Shown here: piece by piece, positions 3,887 to 40,339 of the stretch
How positions within the stretch are numbered: position 1 is the first letter of the stretch
Layout of the letters: each line of letters begins with the position of its first letter
Assembly: GCA_029259935.1 (NCBI GenBank)
Contig: JAJDEH010000417.1
Coordinates: 1 to 40,461 of the forward strand
Direction: 5' to 3'
Length of the DNA stretch: 40,461 nt
DNA from: Planctomycetota bacterium
Lineage (GTDB): Bacteria; Planctomycetota; Planctomycetia; Pirellulales; Pirellulaceae
Program-made: the position numbers and the translations under genes
The notes under the pieces: model-generated
What the model was told of the DNA's origin: nothing
Database searches by the model: none
Seen by the model: the letters and a program-made list of their open reading frames with translations, nothing else

Positions 3887-6800
3887 TTACTCTTCCAGCC
3901 GAGAGCGAATGTAATCGGCGGCGCGGTCGTAATCAAACAACGCATAAGAAGCGAGTTGCTTGCGTTTGCGTTCCAATTCATCCCGCTCTTGATTCGTGGC
4001 GGCTTTGTCGATGCGATCGTCGAATTGGTTCGCGGTCTCGCGGGACTGGGCAACGCCTTCCATGAAGATCTTGCGGGCCTGTTCGCCGCGATCCGTGACG
4101 TTCGCATTCAGCAAAGCCACATCGTCGGCGAGTTCGCCATTTTCGTCCACTTGAAAGGCAAAGGATCCCATCTTTCCGGCCAGTTGCAGCAGGTGCTTTT
4201 CGTAGGCGTGATAGCCCTTTTCAGGATCCGGATCGGGCATCGCGGCCACCAACAGAGCCAGGTCGTCCAGGCCCTTCTTATACAGCCGCTTTTGAAAATA
4301 CTGCCAGGCCAGCCCGTGATACGGCACCAATCGCTTGGGATGCGAGGCACGCATTGCCTCGAATGTACTCAGCGATTGAGTCGTCCGGCCGAGTTTCAAT
4401 GAGACCAGGGCGTAGGCGATTGACACATCGGGCTCTTTGGGTTGCGAGCGGCGGCCCGCTTGATATTCGGCGGTAATTCTGGAATCGAAGCCGCTGGCGC
4501 GGAGGTTTCCCAACATATCGTCGACTGCGTCAATCGTGGCCTTCGTCAATCGGGGCGGGTTGGCATCGGGAAGGAAACGAAAGCAAGTTTGCCGCAGTCC
4601 CACCTCGCCGCTGCGCTCGGACACCTTCGACAGTAAATAGCTGAACAACTCGTCGGGCGTCGTGTGGTGGTCGGTGTCGCGATCCGCCCCGCCGCCGACG
4701 GCGGAAACGAACGAACTGGCGAAAATTCCCTTGTTGTCGATATTCAGCCCATGCTCTTCGTCGCTGCAACTGGTGACCACGGTGACCGATGACGACACCG
4801 GCTTGGTGGGCCCGCCTTTTAGCGTCGACACCAACCGAGCGGCGGAAGGTTGAATTTTCAAATCGTCCTTCTTGCCTGAGTGGCACGAATCGAGCAGCAA
4901 GATTTTTTCGGTGGCCGTCGCCTTTTCAACTTCGGCGATCAGCCATCGAAGTGGTACGCCGGCGGCTTGCATATTACTGAGATTAAATTCCTTGGGAGCC
5001 AGCAGCGGGACGCCTGCCTCGGTCAAGAAGGCGTGGCCGCCGTAGTAGACCAGCAGTTGTCGCGCTTGTGCCATCCGAGCAATAAAATTTGGAATCTCTT
5101 GTTCCATCGTCCGCCGTGAAGCACCTTCCAAGAACAGCAGATGATCGGGCTGCATTCGATACAGCGTCAGCAGACTGTCCCGCATCGCCTCGGCATCCGT
5201 ACCGATATGGGGCAACGCGGATAGTCGATTGTCGTCATAGGTCGGGTGAACGATGACGATGGCCCACCGCGCGGCGTTCTTCTTGAGCGTGACCGAGATC
5301 GCGCGGGCTTCCGGATTCTTAAGGTCTGCCGACATGTGCGAAATGACGACGGAATCGCCGCTTTGCAGGCGCGGCAAATCCACGAACGCCCCCGAATCGC
5401 CTAGCTTTATTTCGCAATTGGGTGCCAGCGTGAATTCCACGGGCCGCGTGCGATTCTTCAGCCGCACTACCATGCGCCGTTGAGGGACTTCCAAGCTCTC
5501 CACTGCACCGACCGCGGTAAATTCACGATGAGCATCAACCCGCAATACTTCGGCATCGTGATCAATCGTGATCCGATCCTCGGCCTTGAGGTGAGACAGT
5601 GTGACGACTTTCCCTTCATCCAGCACTCGCAAGTCATTCAGCAGAAACTCGCAGTTTGGCGATACGGGAAACGTCTTTGTCTCGGCCGTGGTATCCAGGC
5701 CGTTTCGATAAGTGATTTCCTTCCGGCTTGTATTGACGCTGACCAAGTAGCCGCTATCGGACACGGTCCGCAAGGCCACCAACGAACTGGCGACTTCTCC
5801 GTCTTCCGTGGCGGCGTGTTCTATCGCCACTCGGTCACTCGCTTTCAGGTCGGCCACGCGCGCATCTCGCTTGCCGATCCTTGAGGAACCATTGAGAATA
5901 ATTTCCACCGTCGACGGCACGTAAACCTCCAGCGGATTGCCTTCGCTGTCGCGGGTGGAGAGCGTGAGTACGGCGCGGCTCTGATCAATCGAGACAATTG
6001 TTGTCGTCAGGCCCTTGGAAAGTTGGCGCGAAGCTTCGATATCCCGGAATTCCTTTCCGTCGGCCGTTTTCAAACGGCGAATCGTCAGTCGATCGCCGGG
6101 CTTCAAGTCCAGCATCGTGACTTTCAGGTCGTTGACCAGAAAGCGGTCGGTTTCCGGGTCGACTTCAATGCCCACGCTGGTTCCATCGGCCAACTCGATT
6201 TCGATCAGATTGCGATCGGGATAAAGGCTAACAAGCTTTCCTTGGCTGGGGCCCTGGACTTGCTCTTGGGCGTCGGGATCGGGGCCGCTCGATAGCAAGC
6301 GTTCGCCAAACAGCAAACCCAAGCTCATCAGCATGCTGGCCGCGAACGCGCCGATAATCAGGACCCGTTTTCGCTTGGCCTGCTTTTCCACTTGCTCGGC
6401 GGCGACCTTTTCTTCATCGGTCAGCGCCTCTTCGCCGCCCTCGCCACCCGCTCGCAATTCCAAGATGGCTTTTTCCGCGTTCTTGTAGCGCTGGGCGGGA
6501 TCCTTCTCGATCATCTTCTCGATGACATGCGCCAGATCTTCCGGCACGCCTTGCAGCACGCGCGAGATCTCGGGCAGACGGCGGTCGACGGCGGAGTGCC
6601 ACATCATCCAGGCGATCTGCTGATCGCGGCCGAACATGTTCAGGCCGGGAAACAAAGTATCAAAGTGGCTGCCGGCCATCAGTTCGTAGGCCGAAAATCC
6701 CAGTGAATAAATGTCGCTGGGCGGTCCCACCGGGCCGAATTGATCGGAGACGACTTCCGGCGCCATGTACTTCGTCGTCCCCTTGACGACACTGCCATCG

Positions 6801-7261
6801 TCGCCCGCCATGCGCCGCGCAATGCCAAAGTCGCCCAACTTGACCCGGTGATTTTTGTCCAGCAACAAGTTGCCTGGCTTGACGTCGCCGTGAATGATGT
6901 TGTTTTGGTGGAGAAAGTGAAGCGCGTGCAGGATGTAGGTCAGAGTTAGCCGCAGGTCTTCCAGGTCGATCGGATTCCCATCCAGCTTTTGCTGCAAACT
7001 GCCCTGCATCAGTTCCAAAATCAGCCAGCCGCGTTCCCGGACGATGTCGTAGATCGTCATGATATACGGGTGTTCCAAGCTGGCCAGAAACTGCGCTTCC
7101 TGCCAATACCGATCGAGTTGCTTGGGGTCGGCCAGATACTGCTGGTGAATCTGCTTGATGGCTACCTCGCGGCCCAGTTCGTTGTCCTTGGCGCGAAACA
7201 CGGTCGCGTAGTCGCCCTGAGCGATTGTCTCGATAATCTGGTAACGAATGTGCGGTTCCAT
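3887..7261 (-). CDS. Transmembrane Ser/Thr protein kinase fused to caspase-like (C14) protease
   Basis: The product has 1124 residues. Residues 7-270 form a Hanks-type kinase: Lys36 in VAIKQI, the catalytic loop HGDVKPGN at 124-131 with Asp126 (HGD instead of the usual HRD), DFG with Asp144, and YMAPEV. A basic segment leads into one membrane helix at about 299-318. Next come four imperfect repeats of some 65-75 residues (about 341-398, 417-485, 503-568, 584-645), each ending in a pattern like LKxxDRxTI. Residues 664-880 form a caspase-fold domain with the probable dyad His743 (YYGGHAF) and Cys793 (LLLDSCHSG). The C-terminus (about 900-1124) is helical and partly TPR-like. The kinase should face the cytoplasm, with the repeats and protease on the other side. 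Substrates are unknown. Confidence 0.88.
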   Translation of the reverse strand: MEPHIRYQIIETIAQGDYATVFRAKDNELGREVAIKQIHQQYLADPKQLDRYWQEAQFLASLEHPYIMTIYDIVRERGWLILELMQGSLQQKLDGNPIDLEDLRLTLTYILHALHFLHQNNIIHGDVKPGNLLLDKNHRVKLGDFGIARRMAGDDGSVVKGTTKYMAPEVVSDQFGPVGPPSDIYSLGFSAYELMAGSHFDTLFPGLNMFGRDQQIAWMMWHSAVDRRLPEISRVLQGVPEDLAHVIEKMIEKDPAQRYKNAEKAILELRAGGEGGEEALTDEEKVAAEQVEKQAKRKRVLIIGAFAASMLMSLGLLFGERLLSSGPDPDAQEQVQGPSQGKLVSLYPDRNLIEIELADGTSVGIEVDPETDRFLVNDLKVTMLDLKPGDRLTIRRLKTADGKEFRDIEASRQLSKGLTTTIVSIDQSRAVLTLSTRDSEGNPLEVYVPSTVEIILNGSSRIGKRDARVADLKASDRVAIEHAATEDGEVASSLVALRTVSDSGYLVSVNTSRKEITYRNGLDTTAETKTFPVSPNCEFLLNDLRVLDEGKVVTLSHLKAEDRITIDHDAEVLRVDAHREFTAVGAVESLEVPQRRMVVRLKNRTRPVEFTLAPNCEIKLGDSGAFVDLPRLQSGDSVVISHMSADLKNPEARAISVTLKKNAARWAIVIVHPTYDDNRLSALPHIGTDAEAMRDSLLTLYRMQPDHLLFLEGASRRTMEQEIPNFIARMAQARQLLVYYGGHAFLTEAGVPLLAPKEFNLSNMQAAGVPLRWLIAEVEKATATEKILLLDSCHSGKKDDLKIQPSAARLVSTLKGGPTKPVSSSVTVVTSCSDEEHGLNIDNKGIFASSFVSAVGGGADRDTDHHTTPDELFSYLLSKVSERSGEVGLRQTCFRFLPDANPPRLTKATIDAVDDMLGNLRASGFDSRITAEYQAGRRSQPKEPDVSIAYALVSLKLGRTTQSLSTFEAMRASHPKRLVPYHGLAWQYFQKRLYKKGLDDLALLVAAMPDPDPEKGYHAYEKHLLQLAGKMGSFAFQVDENGELADDVALLNANVTDRGEQARKIFMEGVAQSRETANQFDDRIDKAATNQERDELERKRKQLASYALFDYDRAADYIRSRLEE

Positions 7262-10369: not shown

Positions 10370-10521
10370 TGCGTCCGGCGCGACGAACGAAAAGACCGAG
10401 ATAGACTTCAAGCATCTGAGGCCGGCGTGTAGTCCCATCCTCTATCTTGCCGACGACTCCTGATACAATATCAGTTTGTCGCATTGCAGATCACCTCGCA
10501 ACTGGCTCGAAGGACTTGCCC

Positions 10522-11841
10522 ATGGCTCGGTTCTTTGTTTCCTATCGTCGCGCCGACAGCGCCTATCCAGCACAGTTTATCGCCCAACATGTCGATCAGC
10601 ACTTTGGCAAAGGTACGGCTTTTATCGATGTCAAGGGCATCCCGATCGGCGCCGATTTTCGTCGTTATCTGGTCACGGCCCTGGAATCGGCCGATGCTCT
10701 GCTTGTGGTGATTGGCAATTGGTGGTTGGCCGAGCAAGACGGTCGGCGGCGGCTTGACGATCCCAACGACTACGTTCGGCTGGAAATCATGACCGCGATG
10801 TCGGCAAAGATTCCGATCATTCCGGTGGTCGTGGAGGACGCCAAGATGCCTGGTGAGGCCGACTTGCCGCCCGCATTGCGCGAGCTGTCGTACTTGAATT
10901 GTGCCGAAGTACGGTCCGGCCGCGACTCGGAACAGCACATTAGTCGACTGGTGACCGTGCTGGAAGAACTTCTGGAGAGATCGGAGAGCAATCGTTTTGG
11001 CATCAAGCGCCGTCGCCTTGACGAAACGGACCGCCCTCAGCCGGAGAGTCCAAGGCGGCTGGAAATTCCGGCAACAACCTTGCCACGGATCACCAACTCC
11101 ATCGGTATGGAGTTTGTCAAAGTGCCAATTGGAGAGTTCTGGATGGGCTCGCCGCAAGCGGATCAAGAAGCGGATGACGATGAAAAGCCGCGTCATCCAG
11201 TTGAGATAACCACGGAGTTTTTTCTAGGAGCCTGTCCATGCACGCAAATCGAGTATGAACTTGTGTGCGGGCAATTTTCTCATTCGACGGCCAATAGCGG
11301 TCGACACCCGGTCTCGAATGTCTCTTGGTTCGACGCGATTGATTTCTGCAACGCGCTTAGCAAGCAGGAAGGGCTTCAGCCTTACTATCTAGTCGAAGGC
11401 GAGCAGGTGTCGGTTGCCGGCGGCGCGGGGTACCGCTTGCCAACCGAGGCTGAATGGGAATATACCTGCCGGGCTGAAACCACGACGAAGTGGAGTTTCG
11501 GCGATGATCACGGAATGATCAACGACCATGCATGGTGCAATGCCGGATCGTGCCAACCGGTGGGAATGAAGGCCCGAAATGCATGGGGATTCGCCGACAT
11601 GCACGGAAACGTATGGGAGTGGTGCTGGGACTGGTACCGGCCTTATGCAGATCTACTGCTCACTGGGGCGGGAGCCAGTCATCCATCGCCAGACAACGGC
11701 GAAGACCGTGTCATTCGCGGTGGATCTTTTTTCTTCCAAGCTTGGAATGCGCGATCCGCGTATCGGATCGGTGAACGGCCGACAACTCGGAACGATAATA
11801 TCGGCTTCCGAGTCGCAAGGGATGTTCCAGCGGACCGCTAG
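10522..11841 (+). CDS. TIR domain fused to FGE/SUMF1-like C-type-lectin-fold domain
   Basis: The 439-residue protein begins with a TIR domain (1-150): FFVSYRRADSA, then FIDVKGIPIGADF, and the helix DYVRLEI, whose Glu88 is the likely NAD-cleaving residue if the domain is active. A linker leads to an FGE-sulfatase domain (about 188-435) with GMEFVKVPIGEFWMGS, RLPTEAEWEY, MHGNVWEWCWDWY and RVIRGGS. Real formylglycine-generating enzymes carry two cysteines just after the RGGS motif. Here the stretch is SFFFQAWNARSAYR, without cysteine, so the oxidase activity is probably absent and the domain may bind ligand. The start at 10522 is set by AAGGA seven bases before the ATG; the longer frame from 10447 lacks this. 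The gene is divergent from the hybrid kinase. An immune or signalling role is inferred from similar TIR fusions. Confidence 0.88.
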   Translation: MARFFVSYRRADSAYPAQFIAQHVDQHFGKGTAFIDVKGIPIGADFRRYLVTALESADALLVVIGNWWLAEQDGRRRLDDPNDYVRLEIMTAMSAKIPIIPVVVEDAKMPGEADLPPALRELSYLNCAEVRSGRDSEQHISRLVTVLEELLERSESNRFGIKRRRLDETDRPQPESPRRLEIPATTLPRITNSIGMEFVKVPIGEFWMGSPQADQEADDDEKPRHPVEITTEFFLGACPCTQIEYELVCGQFSHSTANSGRHPVSNVSWFDAIDFCNALSKQEGLQPYYLVEGEQVSVAGGAGYRLPTEAEWEYTCRAETTTKWSFGDDHGMINDHAWCNAGSCQPVGMKARNAWGFADMHGNVWEWCWDWYRPYADLLLTGAGASHPSPDNGEDRVIRGGSFFFQAWNARSAYRIGERPTTRNDNIGFRVARDVPADR

Positions 11842-34361: not shown

Positions 34362-34745
34362 ATGAACGGCCCAAAATTAGCATTGGTGTTGCTGGTGGCC
34401 TTCTGCCTGCCGGTGGCGGTGGCCATGCTTCAATACCGTGAAGAGATTCAAAAGCGGTTTGAAGTCAATCCTCGGACGTCCAAAGGAAGACTGCTGTATT
34501 TTACGCTGCCGTCAGGCTGAGGCCCCTGCAGCCGTAGCAAGCCGGCGGTCGCCGCGCTTCGTAAGAAAGGCTTCGACATCCAAACCATTGACGTACGCCA
34601 TTGTCGCGAGCTTGCGGAAGACTACGGTGTGAACCGTGTCCCGACCTACATCTACAAATTGAATGGCAAGGAAGTTCGACGATCGGCGGGACTGGAATCC
34701 GAAACGGCAATTCGATGGATGTTCCGGCCACCACTGTTTCAGTAG
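34362..34745 (+). CDS. Probable selenocysteine-containing thioredoxin-like protein (in-frame UGA at 34518)
   Basis: Read through one UGA, the frame from ATG at 34362 to TAG at 34743 encodes 127 residues. Residues 5-24 form a membrane anchor (KLALVLLVAFCLPVAVAML). A thioredoxin fold follows: strand RLLYFTLPSG, then UGA at codon 53 directly before Gly-Pro-Cys, so the active site is U-G-P-C in place of C-G-P-C. Proline 61 lies five residues after Cys56, as in thioredoxin. The cis-proline motif is present (RVPTYIYKLNGK) and a C-terminal helix closes the fold. Nothing else interrupts the frame. The UGA falls exactly where the attacking cysteine belongs, which points to selenocysteine rather than random decay. 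A pseudogene or sequencing error remains possible. It should act in the periplasm or at the membrane. It is flanked by a divergent cytochrome gene and a convergent exporter. Confidence 0.82.
34540..34558 (+). promoter_or_regulatory. Candidate bacterial SECIS stem-loop after UGA
   Basis: Nineteen bases after the UGA at 34518-34520, AGC-CGGC pairs with GCCG-(C)-GCT around the loop GGTC (34547-34550), giving seven pairs with one bulged C. A G stands at the top of the loop, 26 bases from the UGA, in the range known for bacterial SECIS elements. GGUC also occurs in the E. coli fdhF SECIS loop, as I recall. It lies inside the coding region, as bacterial SECIS elements do. Confidence 0.5.
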
Positions 34746-38854: not shown

Positions 38855-40339
38855 ATGAAACGCACTCTTCTCGCGCTGCTCGCTGCTTCGGGCGCGGTCA
38901 TATTTTGCGCCCCTGCCGCTTGGTGCGCCGAGCGACCCAATGTCATCTTGTTCATCGCCGATGATGTTTCTGATGAAGACCTGGGCTGCTACGGCCATCC
39001 GACGGTAAAGACGCCGAACATCGATCACCTGGCGGGCGGTGGATTGCGATTCACCAATGCTTATCTGACGACCAGCAGTTGCAGCCCCAGTCGGTGTAGC
39101 CTGATCACGGGCCGCTATCCCCACAACACCGGCGCGCCGGAACTGCACACCCGGCTGCCCGATGAGCAGATCCGTTTCCCCGAATTGCTGCGGCAAGCCG
39201 GCTACCATACGGCTCTTTCGGGAAAGAATCACATGTTCGGCAACAAAGACCGCGCTTTCGACGTCATCTCCAGAGGGAAAGGCCCCGGTAGGGAAGAGGA
39301 TTGGGTGCAGTTGGTTCGAGAGCGGCCGAAGGATCAGCCCTTCTTCTTTTGGTTTGCCTCGACGGATGCCCATCGAGGGTGGCAACAAGACGACTCCGCT
39401 CCGACTTACTCAGCCAAGGACGCAGTCGTGCCGCCCTATCTGGTCGACGGCGAGACGACTCGGCGCGACCTGGCCGATTACTACCACGAGGTCAGCCGCT
39501 TCGACCGCTACATCGGCGACGTGGTTGCCGAACTGAAAGCCCAAGACGTCTTAGAAGAAACCTTGATCATCGTCATGGCCGACAATGGGCGGCCGTTTCC
39601 GCGTTGTAAGACGCGACTCTACAACGACGGCATTCGCACACCGTTCGTGCTGCACTATCCGGCGCAAATCAAAACGCCGGCGGTTTGCGGCAGCTTGATC
39701 AGCAGCATCGACGTCGCCGCCACGATTCTTGACGTGACCGGCACGCCCCAGGCCAAAACGGTTCAAGGTGTCAGCCTAACGCCACTGTTTGGCGATCCCA
39801 GCGCCGTGGTGCGCGATGTCGTGTTCGCGGAACATAACTGGCACGTGTACAAGAGTCACGAGCGGATGGTTCGCGTCGGCGACCTGTTGTACATCAAAAA
39901 TAACTTTCCCTATCAGCAAAATCTGTGCGTCGAGGCTTACAACTTTGGCGCCGGCGAAGCACTGTGGCAGGCCCACGCCGCCGGCAAAACAACGCCCGGC
40001 CAGCGGTTGCTGTTCGCCAATCCGCGGCGGGCGGAAGAACTGTATCGAGTTTCCTTGGACGGCGACCAACTGACGAACCTGGCCAGCGATCCCAAGTTTT
40101 CCAACCAGTTGAAAATGATGCGCCGCCTGCTGCAAGATTGGACGCAACAGACGGCCGACACCGTTCCGGCTGATCCGACTCGAGACCGCGACCTTCCGCC
40201 AAGAATTGAAAACGGCAAACTCATCCCACCCGCCGGCAAACGCAAAGGCTGGTCGCATCGAGAAATGCCCGGAGCCAGCGCGGGGGCTGAGAGCATCAAT
40301 CATTCCGGACCGGTTCGACGGAACAAAGCGTCGAAGTGA
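38855..40339 (+). CDS. Secreted sulfatase (Cys-type, formylglycine-dependent)
   Basis: This is a 494-residue type I sulfatase that hydrolyses sulfate esters, probably from polysaccharides. A signal peptide (LLALLAASGAVIFCAPAAWC) leads to the metal motif NVILFIADD (Asp36, Asp37). The active-site signature Cys76-Ser-Pro-Ser-Arg80 (SSCSPSRCSLITG) has the cysteine that a formylglycine-generating enzyme converts. Further conserved parts are GKNHMFG, STDAHRGW and VMADNGRPFPR with the calcium Asp/Asn. AAGGA precedes the ATG. Planctomycetes carry many such genes. The FGE-like domain in the TIR protein of this window lacks the needed cysteines, so the activating enzyme is elsewhere. The substrate is unknown. 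Confidence 0.92.
   Translation: MKRTLLALLAASGAVIFCAPAAWCAERPNVILFIADDVSDEDLGCYGHPTVKTPNIDHLAGGGLRFTNAYLTTSSCSPSRCSLITGRYPHNTGAPELHTRLPDEQIRFPELLRQAGYHTALSGKNHMFGNKDRAFDVISRGKGPGREEDWVQLVRERPKDQPFFFWFASTDAHRGWQQDDSAPTYSAKDAVVPPYLVDGETTRRDLADYYHEVSRFDRYIGDVVAELKAQDVLEETLIIVMADNGRPFPRCKTRLYNDGIRTPFVLHYPAQIKTPAVCGSLISSIDVAATILDVTGTPQAKTVQGVSLTPLFGDPSAVVRDVVFAEHNWHVYKSHERMVRVGDLLYIKNNFPYQQNLCVEAYNFGAGEALWQAHAAGKTTPGQRLLFANPRRAEELYRVSLDGDQLTNLASDPKFSNQLKMMRRLLQDWTQQTADTVPADPTRDRDLPPRIENGKLIPPAGKRKGWSHREMPGASAGAESINHSGPVRRNKASK

Follow-up and report, generated by a model that had tools for sequence, protein, structure and literature searches.

Thioredoxins that carry selenocysteine (Sec) in the active site are already known. 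Early finds in metagenomes and genomes were described in PMC1088965, where the protein was found in Sargasso Sea data, and in PMC1794560 and PMC1242214, as far as the available parts of these papers go, and the available part of PMC13188914 lists Sec thioredoxin (Trx, PF00085, UxxC) as experimentally verified. The gene described here shares with the Sec thioredoxin of that list a PF00085 match above the cut-off, a predicted Sec at the first position of CxxC, the existence of Cys homologues and a SECIS-like hairpin within the coding frame. It differs in its N-terminal membrane anchor, a feature compared on the side of the window protein only, and in belonging to a subfamily seen in one Planctomycetota family only, two members of which lack the resolving Cys. 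It also differs in its score with the thioredoxin equivalog model TIGR01068, which was 33.5 bits against a cut-off of 96.8. This match, far below the cut-off, was the only NCBIfam match of the window protein at E 0.01, and the best of six tested family members (63.2 bits) fell below the cut-off as well. SaoT and HUIPC, which appear in a table of PMC13188914, are thioredoxin-like with UxxC, as is the window protein; their models NF040730 and NF047660 were not among its matches at E 0.01.

Cys-type proteins named 'thioredoxin family protein' in Bremerella and Blastopirellula (P0003, P0005, P0024, P0028) resemble the window protein in length, anchor and domain, with 32-35% identity, but carry CxxC in place of UxxC and a Trp ahead of the first Cys. 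Among planctomycetes, the available part of PMC4807772 reports Sec genes for the isolates P1 and P2 as well as for two others, and a member of the window's subfamily may be among the selenoproteins of that paper. A search of the literature on selenoproteins of planctomycetes or Pirellula, in which few subscription journals were covered, found no title on the subfamily, and selenium use is little described for Pirellulaceae in the literature covered. Sec thioredoxins as such are thus already known; the window gene belongs to a membrane-anchored subfamily that is restricted to one lineage and fits none of the NCBIfam models.

A thioredoxin frame with an in-frame UGA

The window, that is the whole stretch of 40,461 nucleotides that was analysed, contains on its forward strand a frame that starts with an ATG at 34362 and ends with a TAG at 34743-34745. 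The translation of 34362-34745 (+) is MNGPKLALVLLVAFCLPVAVAMLQYREEIQKRFEVNPRTSKGRLLYFTLPSG-(TGA)-GPCSRSKPAVAALRKKGFDIQTIDVRHCRELAEDYGVNRVPTYIYKLNGKEVRRSAGLESETAIRWMFRPPLFQ, and sequence and translation together place the TGA (34518-34520) at codon 53. The first-pass annotation had described a thioredoxin frame broken only by this UGA, at the first CxxC position, and sequence, translation and PF00085 all agree with that description; the landmarks it had named past the UGA (GPC, a Pro five residues beyond the Cys, RVPTY and the final helix) could likewise be read in the translation. We are highly confident that the gene would encode a membrane-anchored thiol/selenol oxidoreductase of the thioredoxin family, with UGA codon 53 read as Sec. 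Its features are as follows:

34362..34745, + strand: whole gene, from the ATG to the TAG, of a predicted membrane-anchored selenothioredoxin of 127 residues, the TGA of codon 53 being taken as Sec (sequence, PF00085, AlphaFold model)
34377..34433, + strand: hydrophobic stretch, residues 6-24, predicted membrane anchor (mean hydropathy 2.57; model helix 3-32)
34518..34520, + strand: in-frame TGA, predicted selenocysteine 53, first residue of U-G-P-C (TGA or Cys at the site in relatives)
34527..34529, + strand: Cys56, putative resolving Cys of U-G-P-C (invariant in the 18 rows of alignment A1; lost in the relatives L224 and L225)
34539..34559, + strand: SECIS-like hairpin of 8 pairs with one bulged C and the loop GGUC at 34547-34550, 26 nt past the UGA (folding; covariation in relatives)
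34641..34643, + strand: Pro94, in the RVPTY motif (unchanged across the 18 rows of alignment A1)

Pro94 presumably serves as the cis-proline in the thioredoxin fold. Read with Cys for U, the protein matched the Pfam family Thioredoxin (PF00085) with 30.6 bits against a cut-off of 23.5 (E 3.6e-7). The 74 codons past the TGA, searched alone, gave 24.6 bits (E 2.7e-5) with the same family, and the 52 residues ahead of it, also searched alone, matched no Pfam family. The nearest solved structures by sequence are thioredoxins (2vim, E 5.1e-9). An AlphaFold model built from 47 aligned sequences with Cys in place of Sec (mean pLDDT 93.7, pTM 0.76) consists of a helix at residues 3-32 followed by a thioredoxin fold, in which residue 53 lies directly ahead of the helix 54-68. 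The best PDB matches of this model in Foldseek are thioredoxins, and the 50 matches listed are, judged by title, thioredoxins or complexes or domains of thioredoxin fold.

Of 32 family members, 28 have one or more Lys or Arg residues ahead of the hydrophobic stretch, and 27 have a net charge of zero or below past it. Taken across the family, these flank charges suggest that the domain would lie outside the cytoplasm; those of the window protein itself, +1 on the N-terminal flank and +1 on the C-terminal flank, are ambiguous for the membrane side.

TGA and Cys forms in related genomes

A search of the protein database with the read-through protein gave no relative (none of its 48 candidates reached E 0.01), and the 70 stretches that a pattern scan picked out of genome contigs likewise included none. 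As far as tested, the gene had thus been overlooked, as the first-pass annotation had claimed: gene finders read UGA as a stop, and the selenoprotein is therefore missed. Since direct searches gave no relative, SufB was used to reach related Pirellulaceae genomes. The window protein was used to scan 396 genomes of the order, and an alignment to scan 241 genomes of one family, which we infer to be the Pirellulaceae. These scans gave one small protein of about 114-130 residues, in which a hydrophobic helix at the N-terminus is joined to a thioredoxin domain and which occurs in two forms. An in-frame TGA at or beside the site was found in 11 of the 241 family genomes (G307, G429, G359, G002, G431, G433, G414, G413, G439, G468 and G415) and a full-length CxxC form in 14, longer frames that matched over the thioredoxin part only being excluded from both counts. 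A draw of 392 genomes across the phylum gave the TGA form again in G307 only. With the window gene added to the 11 relatives, the intact TGA set comprises 12 genes, and the Cys form is represented in the tree by 20 genes, the 14 full-length ones from inside the family and 6 from outside.

The TGA lies exactly at the first CxxC position in 10 of the 11 intact relatives and one codon on in L211. The motif is UGPC in 5 of the 12 intact TGA genes, the window gene included, and otherwise URPC, UGGC, URGC, UPGC, UGC (L211, with Sec one residue nearer), URGP (L224, 2336-2713 +) or URGT (L225, 3910-4251 -). In the last two the resolving Cys is replaced, and these proteins would, to judge by their sequences, need one-selenol action or another partner. 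In the tree, 11 of the 12 TGA forms group together with weak support (85/61), the long branch L215 lying outside, and a single origin of the TGA form is therefore neither shown nor excluded.

These relatives bear on the possibility that the window gene is a Cys-type thioredoxin broken by one base, through nonsense mutation or sequencing error, and a pseudogene in the making. One relative resembles such a case: L163 (G346) has two in-frame TGAs and no clear start and looks like a decaying copy, its GGUC hairpin being still present. The other 11 of the 12 TGA relatives, however, remain intact ahead of the UGA and past it, with the TGA at the site or one codon beside it and the frame otherwise open. 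They are only 26-45% identical to the window protein and yet share the TGA, which argues against a sequencing error or a fresh mutation. The preceding residue is Gly in 5 of the 12 TGA forms and Trp in none of them, as against Trp ahead of the first Cys in 19 of the 20 extracted Cys forms, indicating that the TGA forms are not fresh mutants of TGG-TGC. In addition, the codons past the UGA are under selection, as described below. The TGA being shared by relatives, mutation or error is refuted as a general account, and we regard it as very improbable. Two points raised by the first-pass annotation are borne out here: the placement of the UGA goes beyond chance, and homologues show either Cys or UGA at this codon, apart from the shift by one codon in L211.

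For the TGA pair L207/L208, dN/dS downstream of the UGA was about 0.22 (0.268/1.244), dS being saturated upstream. In all six pairs tested, the third codon position was the least conserved, downstream as well as upstream of the UGA, and amino-acid identity downstream was equal to or higher than upstream. This coding-type evolution past the UGA leads us to infer that ribosomes go through. A true stop would leave a 52-residue membrane peptide, followed by a second half that is silent or starts by itself. Standard translation of the frame does give an ORF of 52 aa, and two database proteins of 70 aa (P0059, P0062) start past the active site of the family. These entries, however, begin within the domain's first helix, and the first strand of the domain and the active site would be missing from them; from their sequences they are probably UGA genes cut by gene prediction. 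Together with the conservation of the residues past the UGA in the six pairs, this makes a true stop extremely improbable, and a UGA read as Sec remains by far our preferred reading.

A conserved hairpin behind the UGA

The SECIS model in the available part of PMC13188914 has a loop of 3-9 nt with G in the first two positions and a stem of 4-16 bp, located 16-37 nt past the UGA, with an energy of at most -7.5. The window hairpin fits this description, with the loop GGUC at 26 nt and -16.1 kcal/mol. All five TGA genes first tested fit it, and 2 of 18 Cys genes. As 72-111 of 150 synonymous reshuffles of TGA genes also passed, this generic model is permissive; it was therefore given little weight, and covariation was weighed higher. 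Considered alone, the window hairpin does not surpass shuffled sequences (z -0.75 to 0.50), and 5.9% of synonymous reshuffles of the window gene give a GGUC loop with 4 pairs. With its protein kept fixed, a given gene would show a GGUC loop with 4 or more pairs by chance in 0-6.4% of cases.

Across the TGA genes, GGTC was present at a common Val codon, 23-29 nt past the UGA, in 12 of 13 (L163 included), the exception being L225 with GCTC. None of the 18 Cys genes tested, a set outside which L206 and L212 lie, has GGTC in the SECIS range, which further separates the Cys type from the window gene. Three or more contiguous pairs close the GGUC loop in 9 of the 13 TGA genes, and four or more do so in 7. 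The GGUC idea was drawn from the first five TGA genes; among the eight examined afterwards, the loop was closed by at least 3 pairs in five. No plain GGUC hairpin was seen in L207 and L208, which have GUU loops with 5 and 7 pairs respectively, in L225 (GCUC loop, 5 pairs) or in L211, where the second pair is a mismatch.

Covariation was tested on 11 of the 13 TGA genes in a common register, with an alignment anchored on the motif and 500 shuffles. The covariation score reached 0.412 (mean of the shuffles 0.203), and 80.3% of the cells were paired (66.4% in shuffles); none of the 500 shuffles was as high for either measure, and both were best at slide 0. Cells changed on both sides numbered 11, compared with 5.9 in shuffles (6/500). 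The two remaining measures of the five were unremarkable, with 4 both-side-changed pairs against 3.2 and 8 further pair types against 7.2 (171 and 202 of 500 shuffles, respectively). Counted from the loop, the second position pairs as GC, AU, GU or UA and fails to pair in one gene, and the third is paired in every gene, as GC or AU; at the two outer positions pairing is missing in 6 and 4 of the 11 genes. On these sequence comparisons we consider that the hairpin, with its compensatory changes, is probably a SECIS; the first-pass annotation had not noticed it. Its loop is probably similar to that of E. coli fdhF.

The loop Val and its two flanking codons read Ala-Val-Ala in most genes, Thr-Val-Val in L210 and Ser-Val-Asp in the decayed L163. 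Possibly, though we lean slightly against it, the flanking codons change in step so that the stem is kept paired, a coupled amino-acid change that comes from two genes only. We also suggest, tentatively and without calling it probable, that this is an old, vertically kept Pirellulaceae subfamily in which the SelB-recruiting hairpin helps to dictate the protein, and in which the URGP and URGT members are one-selenol enzymes. If so, these members would represent a change of mechanism within one subfamily.

A second Sec thioredoxin was observed in the Pirellulaceae. It is of TrxA type with U-P-P-C, and was found in G006 (L103) and G005 (L104) at about 1490-1760 on the - strand. Like the window gene, it has a TGA at the same active-site position, comes from the same family and has a hairpin, here GACUG-GGUC-CAGUC at 18 nt past the UGA. 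Unlike the window gene, it shows no membrane anchor in the frame read, and it is a separate gene with TrxA-like sequence.

Selenocysteine machinery and genomic context

By SufD identity (62-67%, 80 loci), the nearest genomes are G001, G003, G002, G008, G005, G006, G004 and G007; L011 and L014 were left out of this ranking as no SufD stands beside SufB there. A tRNA-Sec match of at least 65.8 bits, identified by ARAGORN as SeC with anticodon TCA, was found in all eight, as was selA, and selB was above the cut-off in seven, G002 being without. The whole SufB-derived set (15 genomes) has tRNA-Sec in 9 and selB in 8; the Rfam matches that G014 and G015 have above the cut-off are tRNA-Ser, and the second G013 match lies outside that check. 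A further set of 22 genomes gave 8 Rfam matches above cut-off, of which those of G075, G028 and G066 are tRNA-Ser, and SelB in 4 genomes. Within the window itself there were no tRNA or Rfam matches.

In the family scan, with thresholds of E <=1e-10 for tRNA-Sec and E <=1e-60 for SelB, 113 of the 241 genomes had tRNA-Sec and 114 had SelB (113 above the curated cut-off), 121 having either and 106 both. Among the 11 TGA-form genomes, tRNA-Sec was found in 10 (G414 without) and SelB in 10 (G002 without), so that 9 have both and all 11 have at least one; ARAGORN identified all 10 of their tRNA-Sec matches as SeC with anticodon TCA. The check for tRNA-Sec(UCA) and selB that the first-pass annotation had suggested thus came out in its favour on relatives. 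Neither marker was found in any of the 14 Cys-form genomes inside the family. Fisher's test of either marker against TGA or Cys form gave 2.2e-7, a value uncorrected for kinship and, the genomes being related, not strictly a probability. The missing tRNA-Sec and SelB matches may in part be assembly gaps.

Outside the family, G058 has the Cys form despite tRNA-Sec, SelA and SelB. SelA was above the cut-off (267.9 bits) in 15 of 36 genomes tested, which fall into two groups. Twelve genomes reach at least 527 bits (G307, G359, G002, G058, G001, G003-G008 and G013), and the Cys-form genomes G106, G091 and G030 have SelA-type proteins of 274-280 bits; tRNA-Sec and SelB are absent from these three, and the proteins are perhaps a SelA paralogue with another role. 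G346, home of the decayed L163, has tRNA-Sec and selB and no selA match.

The machinery also bears on the idea that the UGA is read as Trp, Gly or Cys, through a changed code or a suppressor tRNA and with no selenium involved. All 12 intact members do keep the frame open across the TGA. However, TGA terminates 6 of the 24 listed window genes and is thus an ordinary stop codon in the window, and in the 12 intact members in-frame TGA occurs only at the Cys site or one codon beside it. The TGA genomes moreover carry tRNA-Sec and/or SelB, and no role in decoding of this sort is known for the conserved hairpin past the UGA. We give recoding of this kind almost no credence.

Decoding as Sec would proceed as follows, judging from the relatives and the known bacterial mechanism. 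SelB with Sec-tRNA-Sec(UCA) would bind the GGUC hairpin 26 nt past the UGA, and the hairpin-bound SelB would deliver the Sec-tRNA to the UGA, as the covariation and the machinery in relatives suggest. The N-terminal helix would tether the domain to the membrane, probably to the outer face, if the window protein behaves as its family. In thioredoxin chemistry, the active site provides a nucleophile and a resolving Cys. By analogy, Sec53 would attack a disulfide or peroxide of the substrate, and Cys56 would resolve the selenenyl-sulfide.

The gene adds a selenoprotein that standard annotation would split in two, and with tRNA-Sec or SelB present in 121 of the 241 family genomes, other genes have probably been cut short too. 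SelB recognition and Sec/Cys exchange could readily be tested on the 12 intact UGA forms, most of which have a GGUC hairpin, and the 20 Cys forms, and the UGA forms that lack the resolving Cys are open to comparison in vitro.

The gene seems to stand alone. Its upstream neighbour is a cytochrome c gene (RoxA-like) and its downstream neighbour an MMPL transporter gene that ends 68 bases downstream without overlap, both on the opposite strand, and no promoter-like site was found for the gene. When neighbourhoods were compared with those of near relatives, only kinase or regulator domains resembled the tested window genes. One protein group, which includes the window sulfatase at 38855, recurs in 5 compared loci at varying distances; no neighbour is constant across loci, and we therefore propose no functional partner. 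Elsewhere in the window, the gene at 10447-11841 (+) encodes a TIR domain (PF13676) fused to a domain like that of the formylglycine-generating enzyme (PF03781), and the one at 3887-7261 (-) a protein of 1124 aa that combines a Ser/Thr protein kinase domain with a caspase-like domain (PF00656).
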